Source: a virus. From it: a DNA stretch of 27,849 bases. Shown here one piece after another: positions 14,901 through 27,849 of this stretch. Location: positions 1 to 27,849 of the IMG/VR virus record IMGVR_UViG_3300015265_000015; one strand, written 5' to 3'. Within the stretch, counting starts at the first letter, position 1, and the number at the start of each line of letters is the position of its first letter. The notes beneath the pieces were generated by a model that searched no databases, was not told the DNA's origin, and saw only the letters and a list, made by a program, of their open reading frames with translations. Position numbers and translations under genes: made by a program.

Positions 14901-15160
14901 TCCTTGAAACTCAAGGCTTGGTCGGGCAGCTTGAACTTGGCCGAGCCCTCGACCAGTGCGCGCCAGAACGGGTTATAGATGCCGTTAAAGTCGACCACAC
15001 CACGCGACACCACGACGATATTGAGCGCCGCCCGAAAGGACGGTGGATTCTCAAAACGGCGCCATGAATCGACCGTGCGGCGTTTCTCGTTCAGCAAATT
15101 TGCTGCGACTTGAGACGCACCGAGTGGCGAAAGGCTATCAATCCAGGCGTTCAGTTCCAC
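14897..15160 (-). CDS. Cro/CII-like early DNA-binding protein (tentative)
   Basis: Eighty-seven residues from GTG 15160 (VELNAWIDSLSPLGASQVAA), with CGGA six bases upstream. 'LGASQVAANLLNEKRRTVDSW' is a plausible helix-turn-helix. It is the first gene leftward from the cI regulatory region, divergent from cI, which is the classic position of cro or cII. Its start codon and ribosome site lie inside a 14-bp sequence (15159-15172) repeated exactly beyond the other end of cI. The length is in the Cro/CII range. Confidence 0.6.
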   Translation of the reverse strand: MELNAWIDSLSPLGASQVAANLLNEKRRTVDSWRRFENPPSFRAALNIVVVSRGVVDFNGIYNPFWRALVEGSAKFKLPDQALSFKE

Positions 15161-15175
15161 AGCAATTCCGTTTTT

Positions 15176-15257
15176 AACAGATATGCTGTTTATCGTGGAC
15201 GACGACAAACCCAAACACAAGTTCTTTTTAGTGTTTTTTACACTTTGAATGTATATT
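15176..15257. promoter_or_regulatory. cI / early operon control region
   Basis: The gap between the divergent early gene and cI holds an AACAG-N5-CTGTT inverted repeat at 15176-15190 next to the early gene. It also holds AGTGT-N5-ACACT (15230-15244), overlapping a TTTACACTT..AATGTA element (15237-15253). TATATT at 15252-15257 is a good -10 for cI, and the element overlaps it, so cI is probably autoregulated. On the minus strand TTGTCG-17-CATATC could be the early promoter over the first repeat. The -35 elements are weak. Confidence 0.55.
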
Positions 15258-15289
15258 CAGTGCCTGGAATGATTCCTACAGAGACGCCC

Positions 15290-15949
15290 ATGTTTGATAT
15301 CAAAGACACCATATCCACCCGCTTAAAGGCTTGCCGCGCGCAAAAAGGGTGGACCTTTGCGGAAACCGCCACTGAGCTGTCACGAATCACCGGGGCCAAG
15401 TTCATCCCTTCGCGTTACGGTAACTGGGAACTCGGGATCAACGTCCCGCCGTTGGAAATGATCTTCGCCCTGAGCACCCTGTTCAGCAAACCCGGGGCAT
15501 ACCTGGCCGGACTCACCGACGACGACGGCACCTCACCGGAAACGCGCAAATACGCCATTCCAGTGCAATCGACCGTGCCCACCCCGAACGGCCTGATCAA
15601 CCTCGGCGACAACTCCCTGGCCTTTCGCCTGCGCTTTCTCGAAAGCATCAACCTCGACAAGGAAAAGATCCTCTTGGTGGTCGCCCCGGACGACAGCATG
15701 GCCGGCATCATCGAAGAAGGCGATTTGGCTTTGATCGACCTCAGCGAAACCGCCGTTACGCGTGACGACGTGTTCGCCATCATGGTCAAGGGCCGCTTGT
15801 GGCTGCGCTGGATTCGCCAATCCATCAAAGGCGACTACGTCATTCAGGCCGAGCGCCGCGACCATTACCCCGACACCACCCTGAGCGAAGACGAATTAGC
15901 CGAACTGCACATCCTCGGCCGCGTCCGCATGATCACGCATTTACGCTAA
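15290..15949 (+). CDS. cI: CI-type repressor (HTH plus S24/LexA-like domain)
   Basis: A 219-residue repressor from ATG 15290 (MFDIKDTISTRLKACRAQKG). Residues 5-75 form an XRE-type HTH ending in 'YLAGLTDDDG'. Residues 125-215 are an S24 peptidase-like dimerisation domain with the serine motif 'DDSMAGIIEEGD' (Ser136). Where the catalytic lysine is expected ('GRLWLRWIRQ', residue about 173) there is arginine. RecA-driven self-cleavage may therefore be lost. An earlier in-frame ATG at 15269 is less likely. It is the only long plus-strand gene in the left half, divergent from the early operon, as expected for the master repressor. Confidence 0.9.
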   Translation: MFDIKDTISTRLKACRAQKGWTFAETATELSRITGAKFIPSRYGNWELGINVPPLEMIFALSTLFSKPGAYLAGLTDDDGTSPETRKYAIPVQSTVPTPNGLINLGDNSLAFRLRFLESINLDKEKILLVVAPDDSMAGIIEEGDLALIDLSETAVTRDDVFAIMVKGRLWLRWIRQSIKGDYVIQAERRDHYPDTTLSEDELAELHILGRVRMITHLR

Positions 15950-15954
15950 TAAAA

Positions 15955-15973
15955 TGCCCCACGTCGGGGCTTT
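15955..15973 (+). terminator. Hairpin after cI
   Basis: GCCCC and GGGGC flank a short loop directly after the cI stop, followed by a short T run (TTTG). It is a weak intrinsic terminator for the cI transcript. Confidence 0.5.
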
Positions 15974-15994
15974 GCTACGCTTACAATTTACAGT

Positions 15995-16021
15995 TAAACT
16001 GTTTAAAACAGCAATTCCGTT
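15995..16021. promoter_or_regulatory. Operator-like cluster downstream of cI
   Basis: TAAACTGTTTAAA (15995-16007) lies within the overlapping inverted repeat CTGTTTAAAACAG (15999-16011). It is followed by ACAGCAATTCCGTT (16008-16021), an exact copy of 15159-15172. The first 13-mer also recurs at 26263-26275 in the rep upstream region. Confidence 0.5.
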
Positions 16022-17509: not shown

Positions 17510-18154
17510 TCAAAATACAGCGGCAATAAGCGCCTTTAGCTCGGCGATCGCCTTGGGGTCTTTGACTTTCACCTCAGTGACCGACAACCCAGCCCCGGCC
17601 GCATTGGAGTAGGCCTTGCGCCGGCGCAGGATCTTCGGCAAGTACTCGATTTGCGGGAAGTCCGCCACAGCCTCGGCCGCGTCGCGGTTATCCGTGGACA
17701 GCACGCCCGGCTCGGCTTTGTTCAAAAAGGCATACACCCGCAAACCGTCGCGCACGCTGCGCACCTCATCGACCAGTGCGGCGATGTCCTCCAGCGCCCA
17801 TACCTCAAAGCTACGCGGCTCAAAAGGCACCAGCAGCACGTCAGCCAGCGACATCGCCGCACGCAAGGCGGTCGAGTCGCGCCCGCCGGCATCAATAATG
17901 ATGTCGTCGTAAAGATCCTTTTGCGTCAGCACCTGGGAACGCAGCACCGGCCCGTCAAAATAGGTCGCGCAGGCAATCGCCGGCAATACCCCGGCTTCAT
18001 CACGAATGGCGATCGCCTTTTGCGCCGTCGCCTGTCGATCGCCATCAACCACCAGCACCCGCCGCCCAGCCCGGGCGCGCTCAATGGCCAGCTCGATCGC
18101 CGTCGTGGTCTTGCCCACACCGCCCTTTGTGTTCCCCACCACCACTATGGTCAT
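17510..18154 (-). CDS. parA: ParA-family partition ATPase
   Basis: A 214-residue Walker-type ATPase from ATG 18154 (MTIVVVGNTKGGVGKTTTAI), with GAGGGA just upstream. The frame extends to 18214 but only across the palindromic operator. Deviant Walker A is KGGVGKTT (residues 9-16), 'VVDGDRQATA' is the second motif, and 'IIIDAGGRDSTALR' is Walker B. No N-terminal HTH is present, so it is the small type Ib ParA. It would segregate the plasmid form over the nucleoid. It pairs with the RHH gene 38 bases downstream and is preceded by a 32-bp palindrome. Chromosomal phages rarely keep such a gene. Confidence 0.93.
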   Translation of the reverse strand: MTIVVVGNTKGGVGKTTTAIELAIERARAGRRVLVVDGDRQATAQKAIAIRDEAGVLPAIACATYFDGPVLRSQVLTQKDLYDDIIIDAGGRDSTALRAAMSLADVLLVPFEPRSFEVWALEDIAALVDEVRSVRDGLRVYAFLNKAEPGVLSTDNRDAAEAVADFPQIEYLPKILRRRKAYSNAAGAGLSVTEVKVKDPKAIAELKALIAAVF

Positions 18155-18163
18155 ACCATCCCT

Positions 18164-18195
18164 CGCATACTTTTTTAATATTAAAAACGTATGCG
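18164..18195. promoter_or_regulatory. 32-bp palindrome upstream of parA (operator/centromere candidate)
   Basis: CGCATAC (18164-18170) and GTATGCG (18189-18195) flank the AT-rich core TTTTTTAATATTAAAAA. Fifteen of sixteen pairs are symmetric. It lies nine bases before the parA start, next to a second small inverted repeat (TATCG-tag-CGATA). In type Ib partition loci the centromere and operator lie upstream of parA, so this is the natural binding site for the RHH protein. Confidence 0.7.
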
Positions 18196-18265
18196 TATCG
18201 TAGCGATAACGCACCGTATGTCAATTAAAGAAAGATGCAGAGAGCGAACTAATAAATAGACCGGC

Positions 18266-19947: not shown

Positions 19948-20127
19948 CTAACCCCTGCGCTCAAGAACGATTTCACTCATGCCGCCCGGCTTGGGCGTCA
20001 CGCGGTATTGCTCGATCCCACAGGGATCGCTGGCCAGCCCTTCCAGCACCGACGCCACGTAGCGCCGGCGCAGGCTCACGACCTCGCCCCGGGCCAGCAT
20101 CTGGCGAATTTCCGTAATGGTCGCCAT
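19948..20127 (-). CDS. Unrecognised 59-residue protein
   Basis: ATG 20127 (MATITEIRQMLARGEVVSLR) overlaps the previous stop as TGATG, which fixes the start over a longer frame from 20160. The N-terminal helix is followed by a basic 'LRRRYVASVLEGLASD' and ends 'GGMSEIVLERRG'. No domain was identified. Its place directly after the winged-helix gene hints at a linked role. Confidence 0.55.
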   Translation of the reverse strand: MATITEIRQMLARGEVVSLRRRYVASVLEGLASDPCGIEQYRVTPKPGGMSEIVLERRG

Positions 20128-20507
20128 CACACCCCCCCTTGCAGATCCGCCCAGGCCCATGGCTGCACCCGGTACATGCGGTGCGAATACACCGCCTTAC
20201 CCTCCAGGCGCCCCGCTGCTACCAGGCGCGACCAGTGCCCGCGCACCACGCCCTTATCGTCCAGGGCCACCAGCAACCAGCGCGCCCGATCCAGCCCCAC
20301 ACCAAAGCGGCGCATCAGCGCCCGGGGACCGGTGAACGGCCGCGCCGCGACAAAGCGCGTCACCCTTGTCAACAGCGGATCGCCCAACCACAGCGGCGAT
20401 TGACCGAGCGGCGAACACGGCGCCCAGGACGGCAAGAACGGATTAGCGTCGAACACCGACTGAGCAACCGCCTCAAAACTCACCGGCACGACCGGCACGA
20501 CACTCAT
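20127..20507 (-). CDS. Winged-helix protein resembling the FtsK gamma domain
   Basis: A 126-residue protein from ATG 20507 (ATGA overlap with the previous stop). Residues about 40-95 read 'DPLLTRVTRFVAARPFTGPR' then 'ALMRRFGVGLDRARWLLVAL' then 'DDKGVV'. This matches by eye the FtsK/SpoIIIE gamma winged helix (DPLY..AV.FV......S...LQR.F.IGYNRAARL...ME..GIV), which binds KOPS in FtsK. No motor ATPase domain is attached. A free gamma-like domain on a plasmid-phage could regulate genes, steer resolution or imitate FtsK binding. The N-terminal 40 residues and the C-terminal 'YSHRMYRVQPWAWADL' are unassigned. Confidence 0.6.
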   Translation of the reverse strand: MSVVPVVPVSFEAVAQSVFDANPFLPSWAPCSPLGQSPLWLGDPLLTRVTRFVAARPFTGPRALMRRFGVGLDRARWLLVALDDKGVVRGHWSRLVAAGRLEGKAVYSHRMYRVQPWAWADLQGGV

Positions 20508-20653
20508 TGCTCGTCGCCCTCGTCGTCGTCCCGCTGCGACCAACCCGCTTCCTGCTCGGCTTCCTCGGGGGTGATGTCCGCTTGCAACTGTTCCCGGCGC
20601 AGCGCGCGCATATCGGCGTCGTGCGCCGGGTCGTCATATTCCACATAGGCCAT
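20504..20653 (-). CDS. Acidic 49-residue protein
   Basis: ATG 20653 (MAYVEYDDPAHDADMRALRR) has AGGAG eight bases upstream. An in-frame ATG at 20692 has none. The product is highly acidic at its end (SQRDDDEGDEQ) and helical in the middle. Such small acidic proteins are sometimes anti-restriction or DNA mimics, but nothing here proves that. It is coupled to the winged-helix gene by ATGA. Confidence 0.55.
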   Translation of the reverse strand: MAYVEYDDPAHDADMRALRREQLQADITPEEAEQEAGWSQRDDDEGDEQ

Positions 20654-20691
20654 GGGCAAAACTCCTTTTTCAATGGGTGGGTGACGCGTCA

Positions 20692-20946
20692 CTACTCGCC
20701 TTGATTGGCCAACTGGTTCAGGCGCTGGCCCGACGTGCCGGGCATTTCATGGCAGCGCTCGACCGCCTGGGCCTCGGGCGCGAGCGCGGCGGTGATCGCC
20801 TCGTCAACGGTCAGGCCATAACCGATGTATTGCGGATGGGCTTCGTCGTCGTAGACCTCGGCACACCAGCCGGCGCCATGCTCCGGGGTCAGGGCGATCC
20901 GGCGCGACTCGATCAGATCGATCAGCGATTGGTTGGGGGTGGGCAT
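20692..20946 (-). CDS. First gene of the small-gene operon, unrecognised
   Basis: An 84-residue protein from ATG 20946 (MPTPNQSLIDLIESRRIALT) with AAGGAAA upstream. The pattern 'RIALTPEHGAGWCAEVYDDE' with 'AHPQYIGYGLTVDEAITAAL' suggests a small alpha/beta fold with one Cys. It is the promoter-proximal gene of the run ending at 18315 and stands right after tandem operator-like repeats. It is acidic overall. Function unknown. Confidence 0.6.
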   Translation of the reverse strand: MPTPNQSLIDLIESRRIALTPEHGAGWCAEVYDDEAHPQYIGYGLTVDEAITAALAPEAQAVERCHEMPGTSGQRLNQLANQGE

Positions 20947-20982
20947 GGGGCGGTTTTCCTTTTCGAGTGAGGGGCCAGCATT

Positions 20983-21033
20983 GCGTAAAATCATTTACGC
21001 CTAAAGTGATGTATCAGTTTACCTAAAAGTGAT
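20983..21033. promoter_or_regulatory. Tandem operators before the small-gene operon
   Basis: Two 21-bp elements, 20990-21010 and 21013-21033, both run from ATCA to AAGTGAT (or AAAGTGAT) and are two bases apart. The first also lies in the perfect inverted repeat GCGTAAA-ATCA-TTTACGC (20983-21000). Both resemble the cI-region element TTTACACTTAAAGTGTA. The spacing (23 bp, about two helical turns) suits cooperative repressor binding over the operon promoter. Confidence 0.65.
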
Positions 21034-21044
21034 TTGCACGGCCG

Positions 21045-21084
21045 AAAAAAAAGACCCCCGGCAGTCTGGTAACTGACGGGGGTC
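21045..21084 (-). terminator. Strong terminator downstream of the 21116 gene
   Basis: On the minus strand GACCCCCG (with GTCAG inside) pairs with CGGGGGTC, then eight T. It insulates the small-gene operon from transcription coming from 21361 and beyond. Confidence 0.88.
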
Positions 21085-21115
21085 ATTTCACATAAACAGC
21101 GTTACTCGTAACGCG

Positions 21116-21361
21116 TCAGTGCGCCTCTTCGCCTTCCTGCTGCGCCGCGTCGGCCAGTTCGCCCAGCGCCTGCGCTTCGGGCGCATTGATCAGGCCCAGG
21201 CCTTCCAGCGTCCGCAGGCGGCCGTTAACTTCGGCGCGGTGATACAGGCCCGGCGTCCCCGGCATCGTGCGCAGCGCCTCGATTTCTTGGCGAACGTGGG
21301 CCTTGGCGCGATCAATCAGGCCAGCACTGAGGGTAATGGGTTGGGTCATGGTCGTACTCAT
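21116..21361 (-). CDS. Unrecognised small helical protein
   Basis: An 81-residue protein (MSTTMTQPITLSAGLIDRAK). It is helical, with 'RAKAHVRQEIEALRTMPGTP' and 'LEGLGLINAPEAQALGELAD', and has no Cys or membrane segment. An AAGGAA site lies 11 bases upstream; a second ATG four codons on is also possible. The 17-bp leader before it (21365-21381) is repeated before the next upstream gene. A GTTAC-GTAAC palindrome (21099-21114) sits at its stop, then the terminator. Confidence 0.6.
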   Translation of the reverse strand: MSTTMTQPITLSAGLIDRAKAHVRQEIEALRTMPGTPGLYHRAEVNGRLRTLEGLGLINAPEAQALGELADAAQQEGEEAH

Positions 21362-21378
21362 TTTGGCGGGGGTTCCTT

Positions 21379-21657
21379 TCAGTTCGGTTCGTAAGGGGTC
21401 GTGACTTCAACGCCGGGATGGCCCTTGCCCAACTCGCCGGGCGCCCAGGCGATCAACTCGCCTTCCAAGCCGCGATCACTGATCCAGCCGCTTAGCAGCA
21501 GATCCGCGTCTTGGTCCATGGTTTCCGGCTCAGGCGGACAGGCATAGTTTGCCGCCTCCAGGCGGTGCCGGGCGTCTGCCCAGCTTTCGCCGGGCCGGGC
21601 ACCGGCTTGCACCTGGGCGTCGGTCAGCGGCGGCAGTTTGTCGGGAAGCGGCGGCAT
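21379..21657 (-). CDS. Unrecognised small acidic protein
   Basis: A 92-residue protein from ATG 21657 (MPPLPDKLPPLTDAQVQAGA), with AAGGAA eight bases upstream. It is rich in Pro, Glu and Asp, with 'CPPEPETMDQDADLLLSGWI' in the middle. The stop overlaps the ribosome site of the next gene. Its leader copies that of the 21361 gene, suggesting local duplication. No family was recognised. Confidence 0.6.
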   Translation of the reverse strand: MPPLPDKLPPLTDAQVQAGARPGESWADARHRLEAANYACPPEPETMDQDADLLLSGWISDRGLEGELIAWAPGELGKGHPGVEVTTPYEPN

Positions 21658-21671
21658 GGCGGGGGTTCCTT

Positions 21672-21950
21672 TCAATGCGGTTCGTTATGGGTAACGGCAA
21701 AATACGCCATCGTCCGATCATAGATTGCGACCAGCGCCTCGACGTCGGCCGGACTCGGCAGCGCCTTGTCGTCTTCCCACAGCATCAGGCGCGACGGGGT
21801 GACGCCGATCCGCGCCGCCACCTCGGCACGCGTCCAGTTCGGCGCGGTACGGCAGGCAAGGAGGCGCTCGCCCAGGGATGGCACAGACTGGCCGCAGGTC
21901 GGGCAGGCGTGGTTGGGGTTATCGGGAAACTTCGGGGGCTGCTCGATCAT
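21672..21950 (-). CDS. Small regulator with CxxC and XRE-like HTH
   Basis: A 92-residue protein (MIEQPPKFPDNPNHACPTCG). An N-terminal 'CPTCG' half-ribbon precedes 'SLGERLLACRTAPNWTRAEVAARIGVTPSRLMLWEDDKALPSPADVEALVAIYD', a clear helix-turn-helix of the Cro/C1 kind. The joining of a Cys motif to an HTH resembles MqsA-like antitoxins, but only one Cys pair is present. It could regulate the accessory genes. A perfect GTTACGCGTAAC palindrome lies 19 bases upstream of its start and may be its operator. Confidence 0.7.
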   Translation of the reverse strand: MIEQPPKFPDNPNHACPTCGQSVPSLGERLLACRTAPNWTRAEVAARIGVTPSRLMLWEDDKALPSPADVEALVAIYDRTMAYFAVTHNEPH

Positions 21951-21988
21951 GCGGGGATTCCTTGCGCGGTTACGCGTAACGGGTTGAG

Positions 21989-22411
21989 TCAGGCCGCTTC
22001 CAACACCAGCGCCAAGCGCCGGCCCAACACGCCCAGGGCGCGCTCGACCTGCTCGATTTTCGAGGCGTGAATAAAGTCCACCAGCCGATCGACCACCTGG
22101 CGCGAGCAGTCCAGGCGCCGCGCCAGCTCCTTGCGGCTCACGCCTTCGTCACACATGGCGTTCCACAGCATGATCTTGGCCACGGTCAGCGCCGGCAGGC
22201 GCAGGACCAACGCCGGATCGCGCGGGGCCGAGGCCGCCGGGATCTTGCGGCGTTGCTCGACGTACAGCGACAGCGCCGATTCCAGGCCATTCAGGGCCTC
22301 GGCCAAGGCTTCGCCCAGGGTGTCGCCGGCGGCGTTCATTTCCGGCACGTCCGGGCACGACAGCCACACGCCCGGGGCTTCGTAATGCAGTTCTAGCGGG
22401 TATTGATACAT
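21989..22411 (-). CDS. hicB: HicB-family antitoxin
   Basis: A 140-residue protein from ATG 22411 (MYQYPLELHYEAPGVWLSCP). Residues 1-60 are the HicB partial RNase-H-like fold: 'PGVWLSCPDVPEMNAAGDTLGEALAEALNGLESAL'. Residues 85-135 form an HTH ('VSRKELARRLDCSRQVVDRLVDF') that binds the promoter. It should neutralise HicA and repress the operon. It follows hicA by 32 bases. The frame extends further upstream, but only across hicA. Confidence 0.9.
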   Translation of the reverse strand: MYQYPLELHYEAPGVWLSCPDVPEMNAAGDTLGEALAEALNGLESALSLYVEQRRKIPAASAPRDPALVLRLPALTVAKIMLWNAMCDEGVSRKELARRLDCSRQVVDRLVDFIHASKIEQVERALGVLGRRLALVLEAA

Positions 22412-22443
22412 GGCCTCACCTCTGACGGGGGTACAGCTCAACC

Positions 22444-22626
22444 TCAATCCTTGAGGCCGAGCTGTTTGATGATGGTCTTGCGGAGCCCTTCGTGCATTTC
22501 CTTGCTGCCGTGGTCCGCAAAGACGGTCGATTTGCCATTCAAGTAGACCTTGAAGTGACTGCCCTTGGCGCTCTTGAACTGCACGCCTTGGGCCACCAAC
22601 CACCGCCGAAACTCGCTGCACTTCAT
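22444..22626 (-). CDS. hicA: HicA-family mRNA interferase toxin
   Basis: A 60-residue protein from ATG 22626 (MKCSEFRRWLVAQGVQFKSA). It shows the double-stranded-RNA-binding-like HicA fold with the catalytic histidine in 'KGSHFKVYL', and the end 'HEGLRKTIIKQLGL' is typical. As a plasmid-borne toxin-antitoxin pair with hicB it would favour retention of the element by killing or arresting cells that lose it. Length and order (toxin first) are normal. Confidence 0.9.
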   Translation of the reverse strand: MKCSEFRRWLVAQGVQFKSAKGSHFKVYLNGKSTVFADHGSKEMHEGLRKTIIKQLGLKD

Positions 22627-22656
22627 ATTAAAGCCCTTGCCCGTTTCGGTAGAGCC

Positions 22657-22698
22657 ATTATGCAACACTTGTGCTGCCATAGCAACACAAGTGTTGCA
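22657..22698 (-). promoter_or_regulatory. hicAB promoter with 13-bp inverted-repeat operator
   Basis: TGCAACACTTGTG (22661-22673) and its exact inverse (22686-22698) are 12 bases apart. On the minus strand TTGCTA (22680-22685), 17 bases and CATAAT (22657-22662) form a good promoter set inside and across the arms. Binding of the HicB HTH here would block it. Confidence 0.85.
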
Positions 22699-22703
22699 TT
22701 GAA

Positions 22704-23861
22704 TTATTCGCCGGCTTGTCCTCGGTAATCGGTCGACAGGCCGGCCGCCTTGAGCCGCGCAGTCAACACCGCCACCGCGTCGAAGGCTTTGGCCCGATCG
22801 GCAATCTCCTGGGCGTTCTGACTTTTCAGGCTCTCGACTTCGTCGCGCAACTCCCGCGTGTATTGCTCCAGGCGCTCGACCATGCCGCGCTGTCGCTCCA
22901 GCTCGTCGCGCAGAAACGCAGTCGGCCGGCGGGTGCTGCGTTGCGGCTCGGCCAGATAGCGGCCGCCGTCGCCTTCCGGCCACAGCTTGCGCAGCAAGGC
23001 GTCAAACCCGGGCTTTTTGCTGGCTTCCCAGTCTTTCGGGCGATGGTCCAGATCCTCATGGGCCAACAGGCCCAGGCTCAACACCATGCGGTCGGTTTGG
23101 GTCAGCGGAATAGCCTTGAGCCCTTCGGTGTCGGCCAGCTCTTTCAGCCGCAGTCGGTGCCGGCGTTGCCGCTCGGCATTGCTCATCGGTGCCTTGGCGT
23201 TCGGATCTTTCGGCGCATCGCCGAACATGGCCAACTGACCATCCGGGCGCACGCCGGCAAGGGCGTCGGCCAACCACGGGTACACCTTGCGGTCTTTCGC
23301 CGTGCCGTGTTCTTGGTCGATGGCCACCGCCTTGCCTTCGCCGGCGAGCAGCTCCTGCACCTCGGCGCGCACCGCCTGATCCACGGTACGGCCGACGTGC
23401 TGGGCCGGGGCCATGAACTGGTGACGGTAGCCGGTACGGCTGATAAACGGCTGGTCAAAGTCCACCGCGCGCAACTCGGCGCCACAGTGGTTGGCCAGAC
23501 TGCCCACGTCCATCTTGACCACTAGGCGCATGCCCTCGACCTCCAGCAGAAACTCGCCAGCCTGCCCCCACTTCGGCACCTGCCCGGCCGGTGCGGCAAA
23601 CTTGGTCGCCAACGCATCCTGAATGGTCGCCGAGCCGAAGGCCGTGCCGCCGTTGAGCTTGAGCACACACGCGCGGTAGACCAAATGGGCGTCGTCCAAC
23701 GCCTGCACGTCCGCCGCCAGCATGGCGTCATGGTAGAGCTGAAGCACGCGCGAGGCGCGCACCTCCAGCTCGGCCGGATCGATCGGCAAGGCCTCAAGCG
23801 CGGTGACGAACTCGGGGCGTTCTTCCAGGGGGACGTATTGCATGGGTTTCTTGCGGGCCAT
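22704..23861 (-). CDS. Large plasmid-type protein with C-terminal coiled coil
   Basis: A 385-residue protein from ATG 23861 (MARKKPMQYVPLEERPEFVT). Residues 1-200 are alpha/beta with 'FLLEVEGMRLVVKMDVGSLANHCGAELRAVDFDQPFISRTGYRHQF'. About 225-260 is a basic stretch, 'MSNAERQRRHRLRLKELADT'. About 320-365 is a heptad-like coiled coil, 'LRDELERQRGMVERLEQYTRELRDEVESLKSQN'. The layout recalls KfrA-like plasmid-stability or DNA-organising proteins, but I cannot assign the family. It ends just before the hicAB promoter and starts after a GC hairpin. Confidence 0.65.
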   Translation of the reverse strand: MARKKPMQYVPLEERPEFVTALEALPIDPAELEVRASRVLQLYHDAMLAADVQALDDAHLVYRACVLKLNGGTAFGSATIQDALATKFAAPAGQVPKWGQAGEFLLEVEGMRLVVKMDVGSLANHCGAELRAVDFDQPFISRTGYRHQFMAPAQHVGRTVDQAVRAEVQELLAGEGKAVAIDQEHGTAKDRKVYPWLADALAGVRPDGQLAMFGDAPKDPNAKAPMSNAERQRRHRLRLKELADTEGLKAIPLTQTDRMVLSLGLLAHEDLDHRPKDWEASKKPGFDALLRKLWPEGDGGRYLAEPQRSTRRPTAFLRDELERQRGMVERLEQYTRELRDEVESLKSQNAQEIADRAKAFDAVAVLTARLKAAGLSTDYRGQAGE

Positions 23862-23880
23862 CGTCGGCACTCCATCAAGA

Positions 23881-23902
23881 GCCCCGGCCGACCGGCCGGG
23901 GC
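23881..23902 (-). terminator. GC-rich hairpin between two plasmid genes
   Basis: GCCCCGGCCG and CGGCCGGGGC form a perfect 10-bp stem with a two-base loop. Only TCTTG follows on the minus strand, so it is a weak terminator or an mRNA-processing and attenuation hairpin between the 23911 and 22704 genes. Confidence 0.5.
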
Positions 23903-23910
23903 AACTGTCC

Positions 23911-24114
23911 TTAAAGCCCGATTTCATCCATCAGGGCGTCCATGGCTTCGTCACCTTCACGCGCCTGATAGGCCGACAACAGCGCCGCGCGGGCCATGTT
24001 TTCGGCAACCGGCAGAAGGGCGCCGCCCATCAGGCGGACGGCTTCCATCAGGCGCTGGGTTGGCAGTTGGTTGGCGACTTGCTGCATACGTTCGGAAAGC
24101 TGGGCGGTGGTCAT
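23911..24114 (-). CDS. Unrecognised 67-residue helical protein
   Basis: From ATG 24114 (MTTAQLSERMQQVANQLPTQ). It is almost wholly helical, with 'RLMEAVRLMGGALLPVAENMARAALLSAYQA' and an acidic end 'DEAMDALMDEIGL'. It is the first gene of the block leading to the coiled-coil protein. Upstream lies an AT-rich stretch with TTTTTTAATATTAAA (24178-24192), the same core as the parA palindrome. It could thus share control with the partition operon. Confidence 0.6.
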   Translation of the reverse strand: MTTAQLSERMQQVANQLPTQRLMEAVRLMGGALLPVAENMARAALLSAYQAREGDEAMDALMDEIGL

Positions 24115-24171
24115 TGGACTGATCCGGTGGCGACTTGATGGCAAGCATCATGCCGCGTCTGAATCCTTAAT

Positions 24172-24387
24172 TCAACCTTTTTTAATATTAAACCAATATC
24201 TTTTTAATGCTTTAAAAGAATCCTTTACGCCTTTCCGTCGACCACGCTCACGCCCGGCAATCCGCCTCGGACTCGATGCCGGCCGCACCGATCGCCCAGC
24301 CCCGACCGACGATCGCCAGACACACCCGACCCGCGCCGTGAATCCGCCCAGGGCGATCGCCCGGCCAGCCACTGGCGCCTTGGCCAT
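24172..24387 (-). CDS. Doubtful small basic protein
   Basis: A possible 71-residue frame from ATG 24387 (MAKAPVAGRAIALGGFTARV) with a G-rich site upstream. It is very basic, ending 'GRRKGVKDSFKALKRYWFNIKKG', and that tail reads like real protein while the rest is low-complexity Arg/Gly/Ala. It covers the AT-rich TTTTTTAATATTAAA site at its 3' end. It may be a small DNA-binding protein or chance. Codon use cannot settle it. Confidence 0.25.
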   Translation of the reverse strand: MAKAPVAGRAIALGGFTARVGCVWRSSVGAGRSVRPASSPRRIAGRERGRRKGVKDSFKALKRYWFNIKKG

Positions 24388-25035
24388 CGCTTGCCCCCGG
24401 CGACCGCACAGTCGCCCTCGATGCCGAGGGGGCACACGGTCGCGACCCCACCCCCCTCACTGTTTGCCGGAGCGCTTGCGCGACAGGCCAGCCGAAGGCG
24501 GCGCGTGAAGGAGCGAAGGGACGCTACACGGTCTACCGGGTGTAATTGTCGTCAGCGCGGCCCACAGCGACTGGAAGGCGCCTTCCTGACGGAACGGCGG
24601 CGGATGCCTCAGCGAGTTGTCACGTCCCGCCGTGCCGTAGGCACGAATTGCGGGCGGCCTAGTTGCCTGGGCGAAGCTCAGGCGTAGACAAACAGCTCTC
24701 GGCTTGCCGAGGCATTAAAACAAGGCTGGCCGCAGGCAAGCCGCAAGATCTTCGGAAGCTTAAAGGGAAAAGAACACTGACCAGTTAAATCGACTTCTGA
24801 CCTACTTAACATTTGGGGGTATCACTTAATTTTTCACGCGGCTCGCGCCGGCGATCGACGCGGGGTAAGGAGGGGCGACAAAGCGGGGAAAGTGGTGCTC
24901 GCCAGGGCTGATTTCAGCTCGAAACGACGCTTAGGAAGGGGATTGGCAGGGGGCGGACACGGCAACGCCTCGGCGCGACCACAGCGGGTCGCCCGAGGCG
25001 ATCGGGGAAAGGTTTATCGGGGGAGGATCGGTTGG
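24388..25035. other. Gene-free, hairpin-rich region next to rep: candidate origin
   Basis: No convincing gene is seen in this roughly 650-bp stretch downstream of rep, where IncFII- and ColE2-like plasmids have their origin. It carries four closely spaced inverted repeats: GGAAGGCGCCTTCC (24573-24586), CGTGCC-GTA-GGCACG (near 24630-24645), GCCTG...CAGGC (near 24665-24683) and CTCGG-CTTG-CCGAG (near 24699-24712). An AT-rich zone with ACTTAACATTT follows at about 24780-24835, then G-rich tracts up to the rep stop. No exact DnaA box was found. The origin call is positional. Confidence 0.45.
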
Positions 25036-26040
25036 CTAGAGGTTGAGCCGGCGTCGCGCCCAGTCTTCGAACTTCAGGCCGCCATGCTGTGCAAACAGCT
25101 TGGTGCCTTCCATGCCCCGAGGCTTGCGCCCCAGCGCGGCGGCCATGTCGGCATAGACCTGAGCGACGAACACCTGATAGTCAGCCTTCAGGCTGTCTGA
25201 GCCGTTATCGCGCACCACTTCCTTGGGGAACTGGTTTTTCATGGCCGGTGCCGGGAACAGGGATTTTTTCACGCTGGCACTGCGCAGCTCGGCTTCTAGC
25301 TGTTCGGCTTCTGCCTGACTCTGCACGCCGCTTTGCACGGCGCCATTGAGGAACTTGGCGACCTTTTGCGACGCCTTGTTGCGGATGTTCTTCATTGCGT
25401 TTTTAGTGAGGCCGCCAAGGGTGCGCAAAAACTTCTCGCTCACGGTCTTGATCGCCGGGCGGCCGCGCTTGCCGTCCGTGGTTTCCTCGTACTGCTCGTA
25501 GACCTCGATCGCGCCGGCACGCTTGAGCCGCGCCACGCCACGCCAGAAGCGGCTCGATGCGACCAGCTCAATTTTGCTCGGGTCTTTCGGGTTTTTTTGC
25601 TCGCGGGTCAGACCGCAACGGCGGGCGATTTCATCGAACTGCACGTTGCGGAACTCGCCGCGCGCAGTGTAGGTGCCCACACGCAACGATTTGAAGTCGG
25701 TGGCGGCATAGATCGCCGACAGAATCAGGGTTTCGGCTTCGCGGCCCTCGCTGCGATTCTGCCGGGGCGTGCCGTCGCGATTGGTCTTGCCGCCCAGGTA
25801 CGCCAGCAGCTTCACCGACGCAGGGTCGGCAAAATACGCTTCAACGCGCTTGAGTAGTTTGGTGATCACTTGCAGGCGGTGGCCGCCGTTGACCTCAGGC
25901 AAGGCCAGTCGGTCGGTCGCCAAGCGCTGCGGGTCGTGCCCACAGCGGTTTCCCGACCCAAGGTGAAGCCCTGGGTGCGGATAAGTTGAACGACCCCAGA
26001 CTAAAGTCTGCGGGCTGTCCTCGGCCATCATGGCGGACAT
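25036..26040 (-). CDS. Plasmid replication initiator (RepA-type, winged helix)
   Basis: A 334-residue protein from ATG 26040 (MSAMMAEDSPQTLVWGRSTY), with AGGGGA seven bases upstream. The frame extends to 26097 but lacks a ribosome site. The centre shows 'NVQFDEIARRCGLTREQKNP' and 'SSRFWRGVARLKRAGAIEVYEQYEETTDGKRGRP', the wHTH/beta-wing of IncFII-like and other plasmid Rep proteins. A basic stretch follows ('LTKNAMKNIRNKASQKVAKFL'). Its leader has features of antisense-RNA copy control. The exact plasmid family cannot be named by eye. It is the strongest single sign that the phage replicates as a plasmid. Confidence 0.82.
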   Translation of the reverse strand: MSAMMAEDSPQTLVWGRSTYPHPGLHLGSGNRCGHDPQRLATDRLALPEVNGGHRLQVITKLLKRVEAYFADPASVKLLAYLGGKTNRDGTPRQNRSEGREAETLILSAIYAATDFKSLRVGTYTARGEFRNVQFDEIARRCGLTREQKNPKDPSKIELVASSRFWRGVARLKRAGAIEVYEQYEETTDGKRGRPAIKTVSEKFLRTLGGLTKNAMKNIRNKASQKVAKFLNGAVQSGVQSQAEAEQLEAELRSASVKKSLFPAPAMKNQFPKEVVRDNGSDSLKADYQVFVAQVYADMAAALGRKPRGMEGTKLFAQHGGLKFEDWARRRLNL

Positions 26041-26051
26041 GCTGCTTTCCC

Positions 26052-26087
26052 CTAAGCAATAGGCTTGCTTCGAAGGGGACCGTCCAC
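26052..26087 (-). CDS. Putative rep leader peptide
   Basis: A GTG at 26087, four bases after GGAG, opens an 11-residue frame (VDGPLRSKPIA) whose TAG stop overlaps the AGGGGA site of rep, 12 bases before the rep ATG. The frame is open upstream to 26261, so a longer leader is also possible. A perfect 6-bp hairpin (AAGCAA/TTGCTT, 26054-26070) covers the end of the leader. Leader translation could open the rep start, as in other antisense-controlled Rep systems. Confidence 0.45.
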   Translation of the reverse strand: MDGPLRSKPIA

Positions 26088-26178
26088 TAAACTCCAACCT
26101 TGTCGAGGTCTTCCAGAGCTTTTTGCGGAACGATCACCGAAAACCCTAGGCTTGCAGGCCTGGGGTTTTCTTTTTTCT
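26065..26178 (+). ncRNA. Candidate antisense copy-control RNA of rep
   Basis: On the plus strand TTGCTT (26065-26070), a 17-base spacer and TAAACT (26088-26093) form a promoter. About 75-80 nt later a strong terminator lies at about 26138-26178: AAAACCC-AGGC, loop TTGCAG, GCCT-GGGTTTT, then a T-rich run. The RNA would be fully complementary to the rep leader upstream of the leader peptide. A short RNA ending in a tall stem-loop opposite a rep leader is the hallmark of ctRNA control. This is inference from layout. Confidence 0.6.
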
Positions 26179-26262
26179 AAGCCTTTGTAAATCTTAAAAT
26201 TCTTGTCTCTCGGCAGATGCCGGACGCCAAAAGAATAGCAAAGGCGCCCCGTCTTGAACATC

Positions 26263-26275
26263 TAAACTGTTTAAA
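26263..26275. promoter_or_regulatory. Operator-like 13-mer upstream of rep
   Basis: TAAACTGTTTAAA is an exact match to 15995-16007 near cI. It lies just upstream of a weak minus-strand promoter candidate for rep (TGTTCA-17-TATTCT, 26232-26260). The other bases from 26179 to 26414 hold no gene; an AT-rich patch at 26180-26210 and the rep leader fill them. Confidence 0.45.
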
Positions 26276-26414
26276 TATTTCCCCGCTCGCCGTCCGGCGA
26301 CACTTCTTTATGCGCGCTTGGCCAGCCATGGGCCAGCAGCGCCGCCCGATAGTAGCCCCCAAAGCGCCCGCCGATCAAAGGTTTCAGGCTCATGACCAGC
26401 CGACAGCCGGTCGC

Positions 26415-26978
26415 TTATGGCGGCGCCGCCTGCGCCTGACTGGCCCTCACCACTTCGCGCACGTAGCCCTGACACGCCGCCAGGGCGATCAATCCGCGAT
26501 CGCCGGCGTCGGTGATGCCGATAATTCGTTGAGCATGCGCGGGGTCAAGTTCGGCTCTTGGGCTTCCATGAACCATGCCGCCGGCGCTGGCAGCGGCTGG
26601 CACCCCGTCACCACCACCGGCGGCGCCGGTGGCGAGTAGGACTGACAACCGCACATCAGCAGTGGCAAGGCGATCAGACAGGCGTTGCTGAGCTTTCTGC
26701 GCATCAGACAGTTCCTTGTAATGGGTTTCATCGTTGACCTTCAAACGGCCTTCCAGCGCCGCGCGCTTGCCCTGCTCGATCACCAGCAAGGCCTGTGCCG
26801 CGTCGACGCGCGCCTTGGCGTCCTCGGCGGACTCACGGCCCTGCTCGGCGATCGTCTGCCCATAACGCCAGTCTTGCACTGTCCACGCCCCACCGGCCGC
26901 CATGCCGGCGATCGACAGCAGCATCAGGGCGATCGCCCAGGGGCGCACCGCCGGCGGAATCAGATCGATCAGAGACAT
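26415..26978 (-). CDS. Rz: Rz-type inner-membrane spanin
   Basis: A 187-residue protein from ATG 26978 (MSLIDLIPPAVRPWAIALML), with a near-perfect AGGAGGT site. One N-terminal membrane anchor ('WAIALMLLSIAGMAAGGAW') precedes a long charged coiled coil ('DAKARVDAAQALLVIEQGKRAALEGRLK'), then a periplasmic end with 'RIIGITDAGDRGLIALAACQGYVREVV'. This is the i-spanin that spans the periplasm and, with Rz1, fuses inner and outer membranes in the last lysis step. The start lies inside the end of the endolysin gene. The Rz1 gene is embedded in it in another frame. Confidence 0.88.
   Translation of the reverse strand: MSLIDLIPPAVRPWAIALMLLSIAGMAAGGAWTVQDWRYGQTIAEQGRESAEDAKARVDAAQALLVIEQGKRAALEGRLKVNDETHYKELSDAQKAQQRLSDRLATADVRLSVLLATGAAGGGDGVPAAASAGGMVHGSPRAELDPAHAQRIIGITDAGDRGLIALAACQGYVREVVRASQAQAAPP
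26489..26704 (-). CDS. Rz1: Rz1-type outer-membrane spanin lipoprotein, nested in Rz
   Basis: A 71-residue protein from ATG 26704 (MRRKLSNACLIALPLLMCGC), with AAGGA eight bases upstream. A short basic/hydrophobic signal ends in the lipobox 'LLMCGC', so the first of those Cys would be acylated. The mature part is Pro-rich (YSPPAPPVVVTGC), as in Rz1. The frame lies wholly inside the Rz gene in a different frame, the classic embedded Rz/Rz1 arrangement. Confidence 0.85.
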   Translation of the reverse strand: MRRKLSNACLIALPLLMCGCQSYSPPAPPVVVTGCQPLPAPAAWFMEAQEPNLTPRMLNELSASPTPAIAD

Positions 26979-27617
26979 AACACCTCCTTGGCCACCGCCC
27001 ACAGCGTGCGGCGATCGGCCTCGCCATTGGTGCCGCCATTGATCACCCGCGTGATGCGATCGAACAGGCCGGCGTCGGCCAGCTCGTTCAACCCGCGATC
27101 CCACCAGAACCACGCGGCCGACAGCGCGGCGAACTCCGGCTGTTCCAACAGCTCGGGCTGCTCCAGCAGCGGCAAGCCCAGGGCCTGACCACACAGCCGG
27201 TAGTTGTCGCGGCCGGTGATGCCGATCGCGCCCCGGGCGCGGTAGCGGTAGCCGTCGCCCGAGGCCTCGGGACCGTTGCCCATGCGATCGGCGTAGACGC
27301 GGTTGGCCAGCTTTTGCGAATTGCACAAATACGCCTTGGCGTCCTCGACCTCGGCCGGGTCGACCCGACCGTTACGATTGAGGTCAAAGCCATACTTGAA
27401 TAGCTGCGCCACGCGCACCGGATCCTTGTAGTACAGGCTTTCCGACAACTTGGTCAGGTGGCCGGACTCATGCCCGGCCTGGGCGAGAAACGCCGCCTGA
27501 CGCACCGGCGAACCGATGTCAAAGCGCGCCATGGCGCGATTGAGGGCCGGCAAAAACGCCCGCGACAGGGCGGGCGTTGGGCAGGATGCGCAGCAACTGC
27601 GGCTGAGTAAGCGGCAT
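26969..27617 (-). pseudogene. GH19-family endolysin with apparent frameshift
   Basis: The main frame carries a chitinase-like GH19 lysozyme: 'AGHESGHLTKLSESLYYKDP' with the catalytic Glu of 'HES', 'RYRARGAIGITGRDNY', 'LSAAWFWWDRG', ending before Rz. The expected N-terminus, MPLTQPQLLRILPNARPVAG, is found from ATG 27617 with a GGAG site. It is in another frame and would end early (stop near the later 'GAL'). The switch falls at a run of five T on the minus strand (27552-27556): removing one T or adding two bases restores one frame. It may be a true mutation or a sequencing error. An ATG at 27670 in the main frame lies upstream of a terminator and is not credible. Confidence 0.75.
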
Positions 27618-27633
27618 ACAAAAAACTCCAGGC

Positions 27634-27656
27634 ATAAAAAAACCGCACGCGGCGGG
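27634..27656 (-). terminator. Terminator between gene D and the endolysin
   Basis: On the minus strand CCGC-CGCGT-GCGG is followed by seven or more T. It is short but well placed after the gene D stop. The endolysin ribosome site follows, using the same CTCCAGGCATAAAAAA (plus-strand) junction as at 765-780. Confidence 0.65.
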
Positions 27657-27679
27657 TCAGGGGTGCGCAATGCGCGCGG

Positions 27680-27849
27680 TTACAGGTTCACGACTTTGAG
27701 CGGCTTCGCTTGCTTCTTCGGCTTCTTGCCCTTGGCTTTCGCCTTGCCGTGCTTGCCGCCGTTGCATTCGACGGTGGTCGACCAGCCCGCTTGGGTGTAG
27801 ACCTGCTCGACCGAGTCGGTCAGGTACTCGCCATCGAGGCCGACCTTGA
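27680..27849 (-). CDS. D: Tail protein D (late control D family), C-terminal part (cut by window edge)
   Basis: The last 55 or so codons, ending in TAA at 27680-27682. The translated end 'GEYLTDSVEQVYTQAGWSTT' followed by a Lys-rich tail ('KGKAKAKGKKPKKQAKPLKV') is typical of the P2 gpD/late-control-D family, the baseplate hub protein to which the spike attaches. In P2-like phages and R-type pyocins D is followed by the lysis genes, as here. The N-terminal part is outside the window. Confidence 0.82.
   Translation of the reverse strand, partial: KVGLDGEYLTDSVEQVYTQAGWSTTVECNGGKHGKAKAKGKKPKKQAKPLKVVNL

Follow-up and report, generated by a model that had tools for sequence, protein, structure and literature searches.

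The IncFII plasmid R1 encodes CopA, an antisense RNA similar in size to the one proposed below and directed against the rep leader, and RNAI of ColE2 is antisense to the leader of the rep mRNA and acts with no leader peptide. The closest described relative of the locus analyzed here is REx-C, a replication control module of Pseudomonas plasmids reported for repJ of pPsv48C and for repA-PFP, RepA-RA2, and RepA-Pa (Bardaji et al. 2017, PMC5304414). According to its authors, who make no mention of phages and found the module in Pseudomonas alone, incompatibility maps to the module and few changes overcome it, no REx-C sequence was found in ColE2 replicons, and the antisense RNA was in 2017 still called putative (PMC5304414).

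We analyzed a virus contig of 27,849 bases (IMG/VR record IMGVR_UViG_3300015265_000015; this whole stretch of DNA is called the window below), in which the rep gene is preceded, as in REx-C, by three stem-loops (SL-I, SL-II, and SL-III). In both systems SL-I coincides with the terminator of the antisense RNA and has flanking A stretches, and a putative antisense promoter with the TTGC-17 spacing is located in the third stem-loop. Judging from sequence and its conservation, this region probably controls the copy number of a phage-plasmid by means of an antisense RNA of about 77 nt and perhaps the refolding of SL-II, with no leader peptide required. The coordinates of the features are collected in Table 1.

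Table 1. Features of the rep region and the partition gene in the window (L-numbers are labels of the collected records)
Feature	Position	Strand	Evidence or remark
ParA-like partition ATPase	17510..18214	-	PHROG 164, E 8e-45; Pfam AAA_31/CbiA; supports plasmid maintenance
Candidate origin region downstream of rep, about 890 bp devoid of any credible gene	24145..25035	-	Similar gaps in relatives
rep, putative replication initiator, about 334 aa	25036..26040	-	ATG 26040; SD AGGGGA 26048-26053
SL-III, hairpin UCCCCU-AAGCAA/UUGCUU-AGGGGA over the rep SD	26048..26079	-	Sequence
GTG..TAG mini-frame (VDGPLRSKPIA), supposed leader peptide	26052..26087	-	Conserved only within the clade of the window
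Antisense RNA promoter TTGCTT (26065-26070) - 17 bp - TAAACT (26088-26093)	26065..26093	+	Conservation in homologous leaders
SL-II, long stem in the middle of the rep leader	26076..26138	-	z -4.3 and -4.0; compensatory changes
Predicted antisense RNA of about 77 nt (the promoter position gives the estimated 5' end)	26100..26176	+	Promoter and terminator; folding z -4.6
Antisense terminator hairpin and U tract	26139..26176	+	Minus strand of the same DNA is SL-I with the A run before it
AGGCUU immediately upstream of the A run, may pair at a distance with AAGCCU (26061-26066)	26179..26184	-	Duplex permutation test, post hoc
Likely rep promoter, extended -10 TGCTATTCT	26232..26240	-	Sequence; same motif in the same place in L002, L004-L006

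Phage and plasmid genes of the window

The contig encodes a gpA-type terminase, a ClpP-capsid fusion, an endolysin, Rz, and a tyrosine recombinase, and a gene for a CI-like repressor is located at 15110-15949. Plasmid pHN2 of Pseudomonas sp. HN2 (82 kb) matches 64% of the first 25 kb of the window at 81% identity, and a 38-kb plasmid of P. lundensis also matches part of the window. Given the terminase, capsid, and endolysin genes, the CI-like repressor, the ParA-like ATPase, and the pHN2 match, the window is, as judged from its gene content, a phage-plasmid or a fragment of one: structural genes, rep, and par occur together, and relatives are found as circular plasmids. An earlier sequence-only reading had placed the rep gene in a phage genome, and this setting is borne out, the rep gene being of the plasmid type. 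At 21989-22697 the window is about 80% identical to annotated HicA/HicB toxin-antitoxin genes of plasmids from the P. syringae group.

The Rep protein appears to be a distant homolog of the RepA-RA2 plasmid family, and its role as initiator is proposed by homology only. It matches RepA of Drgb7, a plasmid included in the comparison of PMC5304414, with 33% identity over 210 aa (E 6e-18; the database comprised six sequences), and a RepA of the RepA-RA2 type with 32% identity (E 4e-11, in a search of 7.3 Gb of plasmids). A tblastn search with Rep gave matches in 167 plasmids, several of them annotated as plasmid replication protein repA. Rep falls into PHROG 20951, a family of unknown function, and has no match in Pfam or NCBIfam and no relative among the solved structures of the PDB.

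Transcription of the rep mRNA from the minus strand would start near 26225. In L008-L012, too, rep is followed by gaps of about 600-800 bp, comparable to the candidate origin region of the window. This region of the window contains an inverted repeat at 24691-24752, the arms of which include GGCTTGCC and GGCAAGCC and echo the GCAAGCC element of the leader.

Antisense promoter and terminator

Rep homologs were gathered from viral contigs, genomes, phages, and plasmids, yielding 42 distinct leaders from phage-plasmids and plasmids of Pseudomonas, Delftia, Aeromonas, Halomonas, and other hosts. At the corresponding place, 41 of them carry the pattern TTGCNN-N17-TANACT on the antisense strand, against a chance expectation of 0.07 per whole window; the pattern was written after a few leaders had been read, but homology of Rep, and not the pattern, determined which loci were included. 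Among representatives of 11 clusters, the -35 box is identical in its first four bases and the -10 box is 91% identical, with 36% identity in the spacer and 34% in the flank. When all 41 leaders are aligned, the invariant columns are almost confined to the two antisense promoter boxes (-10 and -35) and to the A run of the terminator together with a few stem bases next to it.

The remaining leader, that of L012 (plasmid 5 of A. salmonicida A449, NC_009350), belongs to a homologous rep but lacks the antisense promoter motif, and control of rep seems to differ there from that in the other leaders. A second exact match to the pattern lies at 15972-16000 on the plus strand of the window, just downstream of the CI-like repressor gene, and is probably an ordinary promoter.

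The terminator consists of 14 pairs at 26139-26170 and six T's at 26171-26176, and ranks best of the 10 terminator-like sites in 20000-27849. The predicted folding energy of the 77-nt RNA is -32.2 kcal/mol, compared with -19.9 kcal/mol for shuffled sequences (z -4.6). A search of Rfam gave no match in the window. The antisense promoter agrees with the consensus at 7 of 12 positions, which is weak, and is absent from the list of the promoter scanner; the case for it comes from the comparison of leaders. The poor score could favor a different explanation, in which the hairpins have a structural role or belong to the origin and no transcript arises from the antisense strand. We consider this highly improbable, because no other simple cause would account for the exact hexamers and spacing retained across diverged spacers and for the antisense-side conservation of the U tract. 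The plus strand very likely gives rise to an RNA of about 77 nt.

These results place the plus-strand promoter where the sequence-only reading had put it (26065-26093), and likewise the strong terminator (26139-26176; given there as 26138-26178). Its short RNA antisense to the rep leader is strongly supported by the comparison, that is, by the promoter hexamers and their spacing, the covarying terminator stem, and the U tract. Agreement with the YUNR loop rule, also claimed, is partial, as the CUUG on which it was based appears only when the C that closes the loop (UUGCAG) is included. On the sense strand the loop of SL-I reads UUGGCG in some clades and its complement CGCCAA in others (L009, L011, and L013 versus L007, L020, L075, and L077), and the YUNR motif thus belongs to the mRNA in some clades and to the antisense RNA in others.

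Stem-loops of the rep leader

In an unbiased scan of 386 segment pairs, with native and permuted partners compared over 11 clusters, the top ranks were taken by SL-I (z -5.2) and SL-II (z -4.3 for the base and -4.0 for the apex). Over the 26 pairs of SL-I and SL-II, 96.3% of cells are paired, and 48 cells are compensatory, compared with 14 in shuffles; no shuffle was as high, and slid controls were far lower. In SL-I, compensatory changes affect 5 of 11 pairs. When 34 leaders are aligned by sequence only, SL-II is misaligned and RNAalifold retains just 6 pairs of SL-I; covariation was assessed instead on a Pseudomonas-like subset and by permutation tests. A covariance model trained on the clade of the window, the Pseudomonas-like subset, recovers the divergent leaders of L054, L061, L062, L009, and L020, none of them used in training, with E 4e-8 or better. 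Comparison of the leaders shows the antisense promoter, the terminator, SL-I, and SL-II to be conserved. Weak matches of the model in Pseudomonas genomes (L135-L144, about 30-34 bits) were rejected; L135 on inspection has no such module.

The antisense RNA covers SL-I together with the apex and the 5' arm of SL-II, and the 3' arm of SL-II is left uncovered. The 6-bp hairpin AAGCAA-GCCUA-UUGCUU on the minus strand (26054-26070), which the sequence-only reading had located exactly, forms the top of a 12-bp stem (UCCCCU...AGGGGA) covering the rep SD.

Proposed control of Rep synthesis and alternative mechanisms

We propose that the rep leader folds as SL-I, SL-II, and the SD-covering hairpin before ATG 26040. 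At few copies, SL-II would fold first and hold its 3' arm, and Rep would be made. At rising copies, the antisense RNA would meet the nascent leader via the loops of SL-I and SL-II and pair with it; this pairing would prevent SL-II from forming and set its 3' arm free to pair with the SD and start region, so that translation of Rep would fall. We infer from the conserved elements that the antisense RNA is made and lowers Rep, whereas the refolding step, taken alone, has about even chances of being correct.

The third signal of the scan joins the 3' arm of SL-II to the rep start region (z -3.4), with an uncorrected p of 0.0007 that on its own fails correction for 386 tests. Freeing this arm raises the mean cost of opening the ribosome-binding site from 8.7-11.1 to 15.0 kcal/mol, compared with 11.0-12.0 kcal/mol for shuffled arms (combined z 4.6-5.4, 11 clusters). 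In the window itself the effect is weak (z 0.3-1.0; 12.0 vs 11.8 or 9.4 vs 12.4 kcal/mol, depending on where the arm is taken to end), and cluster L050 shows no effect or one of opposite sign; for these reasons the switch is proposed from the family. The SD hairpin is predicted in both states, with SL-II formed and with the antisense RNA bound. Between full-length and antisense-bound folds the accessibility of the SD shifts slightly (mean 0.36 to 0.30), being lower in 17 of 41 leaders and higher in none.

The sequence-only reading had proposed control of the IncFII/IncB kind. The analogy stands as regards antisense control in general; the specific features of those systems, leader-peptide coupling and a loop-I pseudoknot, find no support. 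In a mechanism of this kind, translation of the leader frame up to the TAG that overlaps the SD would open the SD hairpin, and the antisense RNA would block translation of the leader frame. The overlap of the TAG (26052-26054) with the SD AGGGGA is real, and throughout the clade of the window the TAG lies over the SD and inside the SD hairpin; the GTG with an upstream GGAG opens an 11-codon frame, and the RepJ-type members L115, L133, and L134 have a frame of 36-41 codons starting from the ATG of the module. However, the GTG frame, which begins after SL-I, is broken by indels between near relatives, since it ends early in L001 and L002, reaches the TAG in L003, L006, L008, and L058, and runs to +10 in L015. 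In the leader comparison it is absent from L007, L009, L013, L018, L050, L055, L076, and others, and the start GTG has changed to GCG in L007, L010, and L081, and to GCC in L013 and L017. The ATG of a 69-aa frame (26261) is upstream of the likely rep promoter. No conserved leader frame coupled to rep in the IncFII/IncB manner was found among these leaders, and the leader peptide was rejected as a general component. In REx-C, modules of the RepA-RA2 and RepA-Pa types lack a leader gene, and repI, which precedes repJ, is dispensable, as its deletion had no apparent effect (PMC5304414). Together with the RepJ-type frames this picture suggests that translation coupling may exist in other members; it is unsupported for the window, where we regard it as improbable.

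Two further alternatives involve activation by pairing at a distance. AGGCUU located just 5' of SL-I could open the SD by pairing with AAGCC, which belongs to the 5' arm of the SD hairpin, unless this is prevented by the antisense RNA; this would resemble the pseudoknot-activated IncI/IncB replicons, but with a different pairing partner. Native duplexes beat permuted ones both in the unbiased scan (p 0.003) and in a dedicated test (p 0.0027, 11 clusters) that was post hoc and is limited in reach by the overlap of one partner with the invariant -35 hexamer. The partners AGGCUU:AAGCCU of the window correspond to GGGCUU:AAGCCC in L002, and the helix is present in the computed folds of L002 and L058, but the pairing is broken in some members (L050, L017), and we consider this mechanism unlikely. 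Even less probable, to the point of being very unlikely, is a classical IncI/IncB pseudoknot between the loop of SL-I and a segment beside the rep SD. Several divergent members (L009, L011, L013) do have UUGGCG, the loop known from IncI and IncFII. Yet the loops vary (UUGGCG, CGCCAA, CUGCAAG, CGGCAAG, CUGGCAG) with no consistent downstream complement in the leaders, as judged by eye, and in the scan SL-I segments had no strong partner besides SL-I itself, the SD region reaching at best p 0.015 among 386 tests; the IncI-type pseudoknot was rejected for both reasons. For REx-C modules, a pseudoknot with sequences around the rep gene has likewise been argued against (PMC5304414).

The module in front of other rep genes

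The same module precedes unrelated RepJ-type genes in L115, L133, and L134. In the P. aeruginosa phage-plasmids L115 and L116, where phage tail genes adjoin, the module is 73% identical over 142 nt; a comparison of L115 with the window shows that identity falls off past the ATG. The proteins encoded behind the module in L115, L116, and two Pseudomonas genomes are RepJ-like (31-36% identity to RepJ). A stringent scan covered 398 genomes of the genus of L013, a Pseudomonas, and gave high-scoring matches to the module in 3 of them. The leader frames that precede RepJ-type genes (L115:2647-2766, L133, and L134; ..GRPxxxxG..) resemble the N-terminus of the RA2-type Reps of relatives (LGRPSxMWGRMPYPxxG in L017 and L087), as if the RepJ leader were a stub of a replaced rep gene. 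Two module-bearing records of the phage-plasmid kind have resistance genes, L009 by its plasmid name (pACil-blaVCC-1) and L116 by annotated merR/T/P.

Returning to the preferred reading, antisense control with refolding of SL-II, we tentatively extend it to a widespread antisense module of phage-plasmids that operates with neither leader peptide nor pseudoknot. As a translational pre-emptor switch, such a module might break SL-II and shut the rep start with the 3' arm, move between unrelated Rep families, and through its loop sequences set the incompatibility of phage-plasmids (replicon-level exclusion); this wider proposal is somewhat doubtful. Phage-plasmids of Pseudomonas, Delftia, Aeromonas, and related hosts, some of them bearing resistance genes, gain in the module a concrete candidate determinant of copy number and incompatibility. 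A type of module known only from Pseudomonas plasmids is now extended to phages and other genera, and the comparison of 41 leaders adds covariation and promoter conservation for an antisense RNA that was called putative in PMC5304414.

Comparison with known replicons

Like RNAI of IncB, IncI, IncK, and IncL/M plasmids, the predicted antisense RNA of the window is short, ends in one strong terminator hairpin, and is complementary to stem-loop I of the rep leader; several members of the family also have YUNR-like loops. Unlike in these plasmids, neither leader-peptide coupling nor a pseudoknot partner was found in the family. The locus differs from the CopA/CopT/tap system of IncFII (R1) in that a Tap-like leader peptide is not conserved and no CopB-like repressor was identified in the window; its Rep, with no hit in Pfam, does not match the IncFII_repA (RepA/RepZ) family. 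Rep proteins of the ColE2 type carry primase and PriCT domains, and the Rep of the window differs from them too in its lack of a Pfam match.

REx-C remains the closest system. Besides sharing the stem-loops, each of the two modules has been exchanged among Rep families that lack homology to each other, identity ceasing beyond the start codon, and both lack a leader gene where the Rep is of the RA2 type. They differ in the -10 box, which is TAnACT in the window module and CATAAT in REx-C (TTGCAC-17-CATAAT in pPsv48C, sequence NC_019292, and TTGCAA-17-CATAAT in Drgb7, both read by eye), and in setting: REx-C was described from Pseudomonas plasmids, whereas the window module is found in tailed phage-plasmids and also in Delftia, Aeromonas, and Halomonas. 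A blastn comparison with the 175-194-nt core of REx-C gave a match in p1448A-B at an unrelated place (E 4.5) and none in pPsv48C, and the covariance model matched pPsv48C, p1448A-B, and pDC3000A at the right place, although weakly (16.5-18.5 bits; 18.5 bits, E 0.03, in pPsv48C). The architecture matches, and the similarity in sequence is too low for blastn and weak in the covariance model; we regard the module of the window as a divergent phage-plasmid branch of the REx-C type and not a strict member of it.
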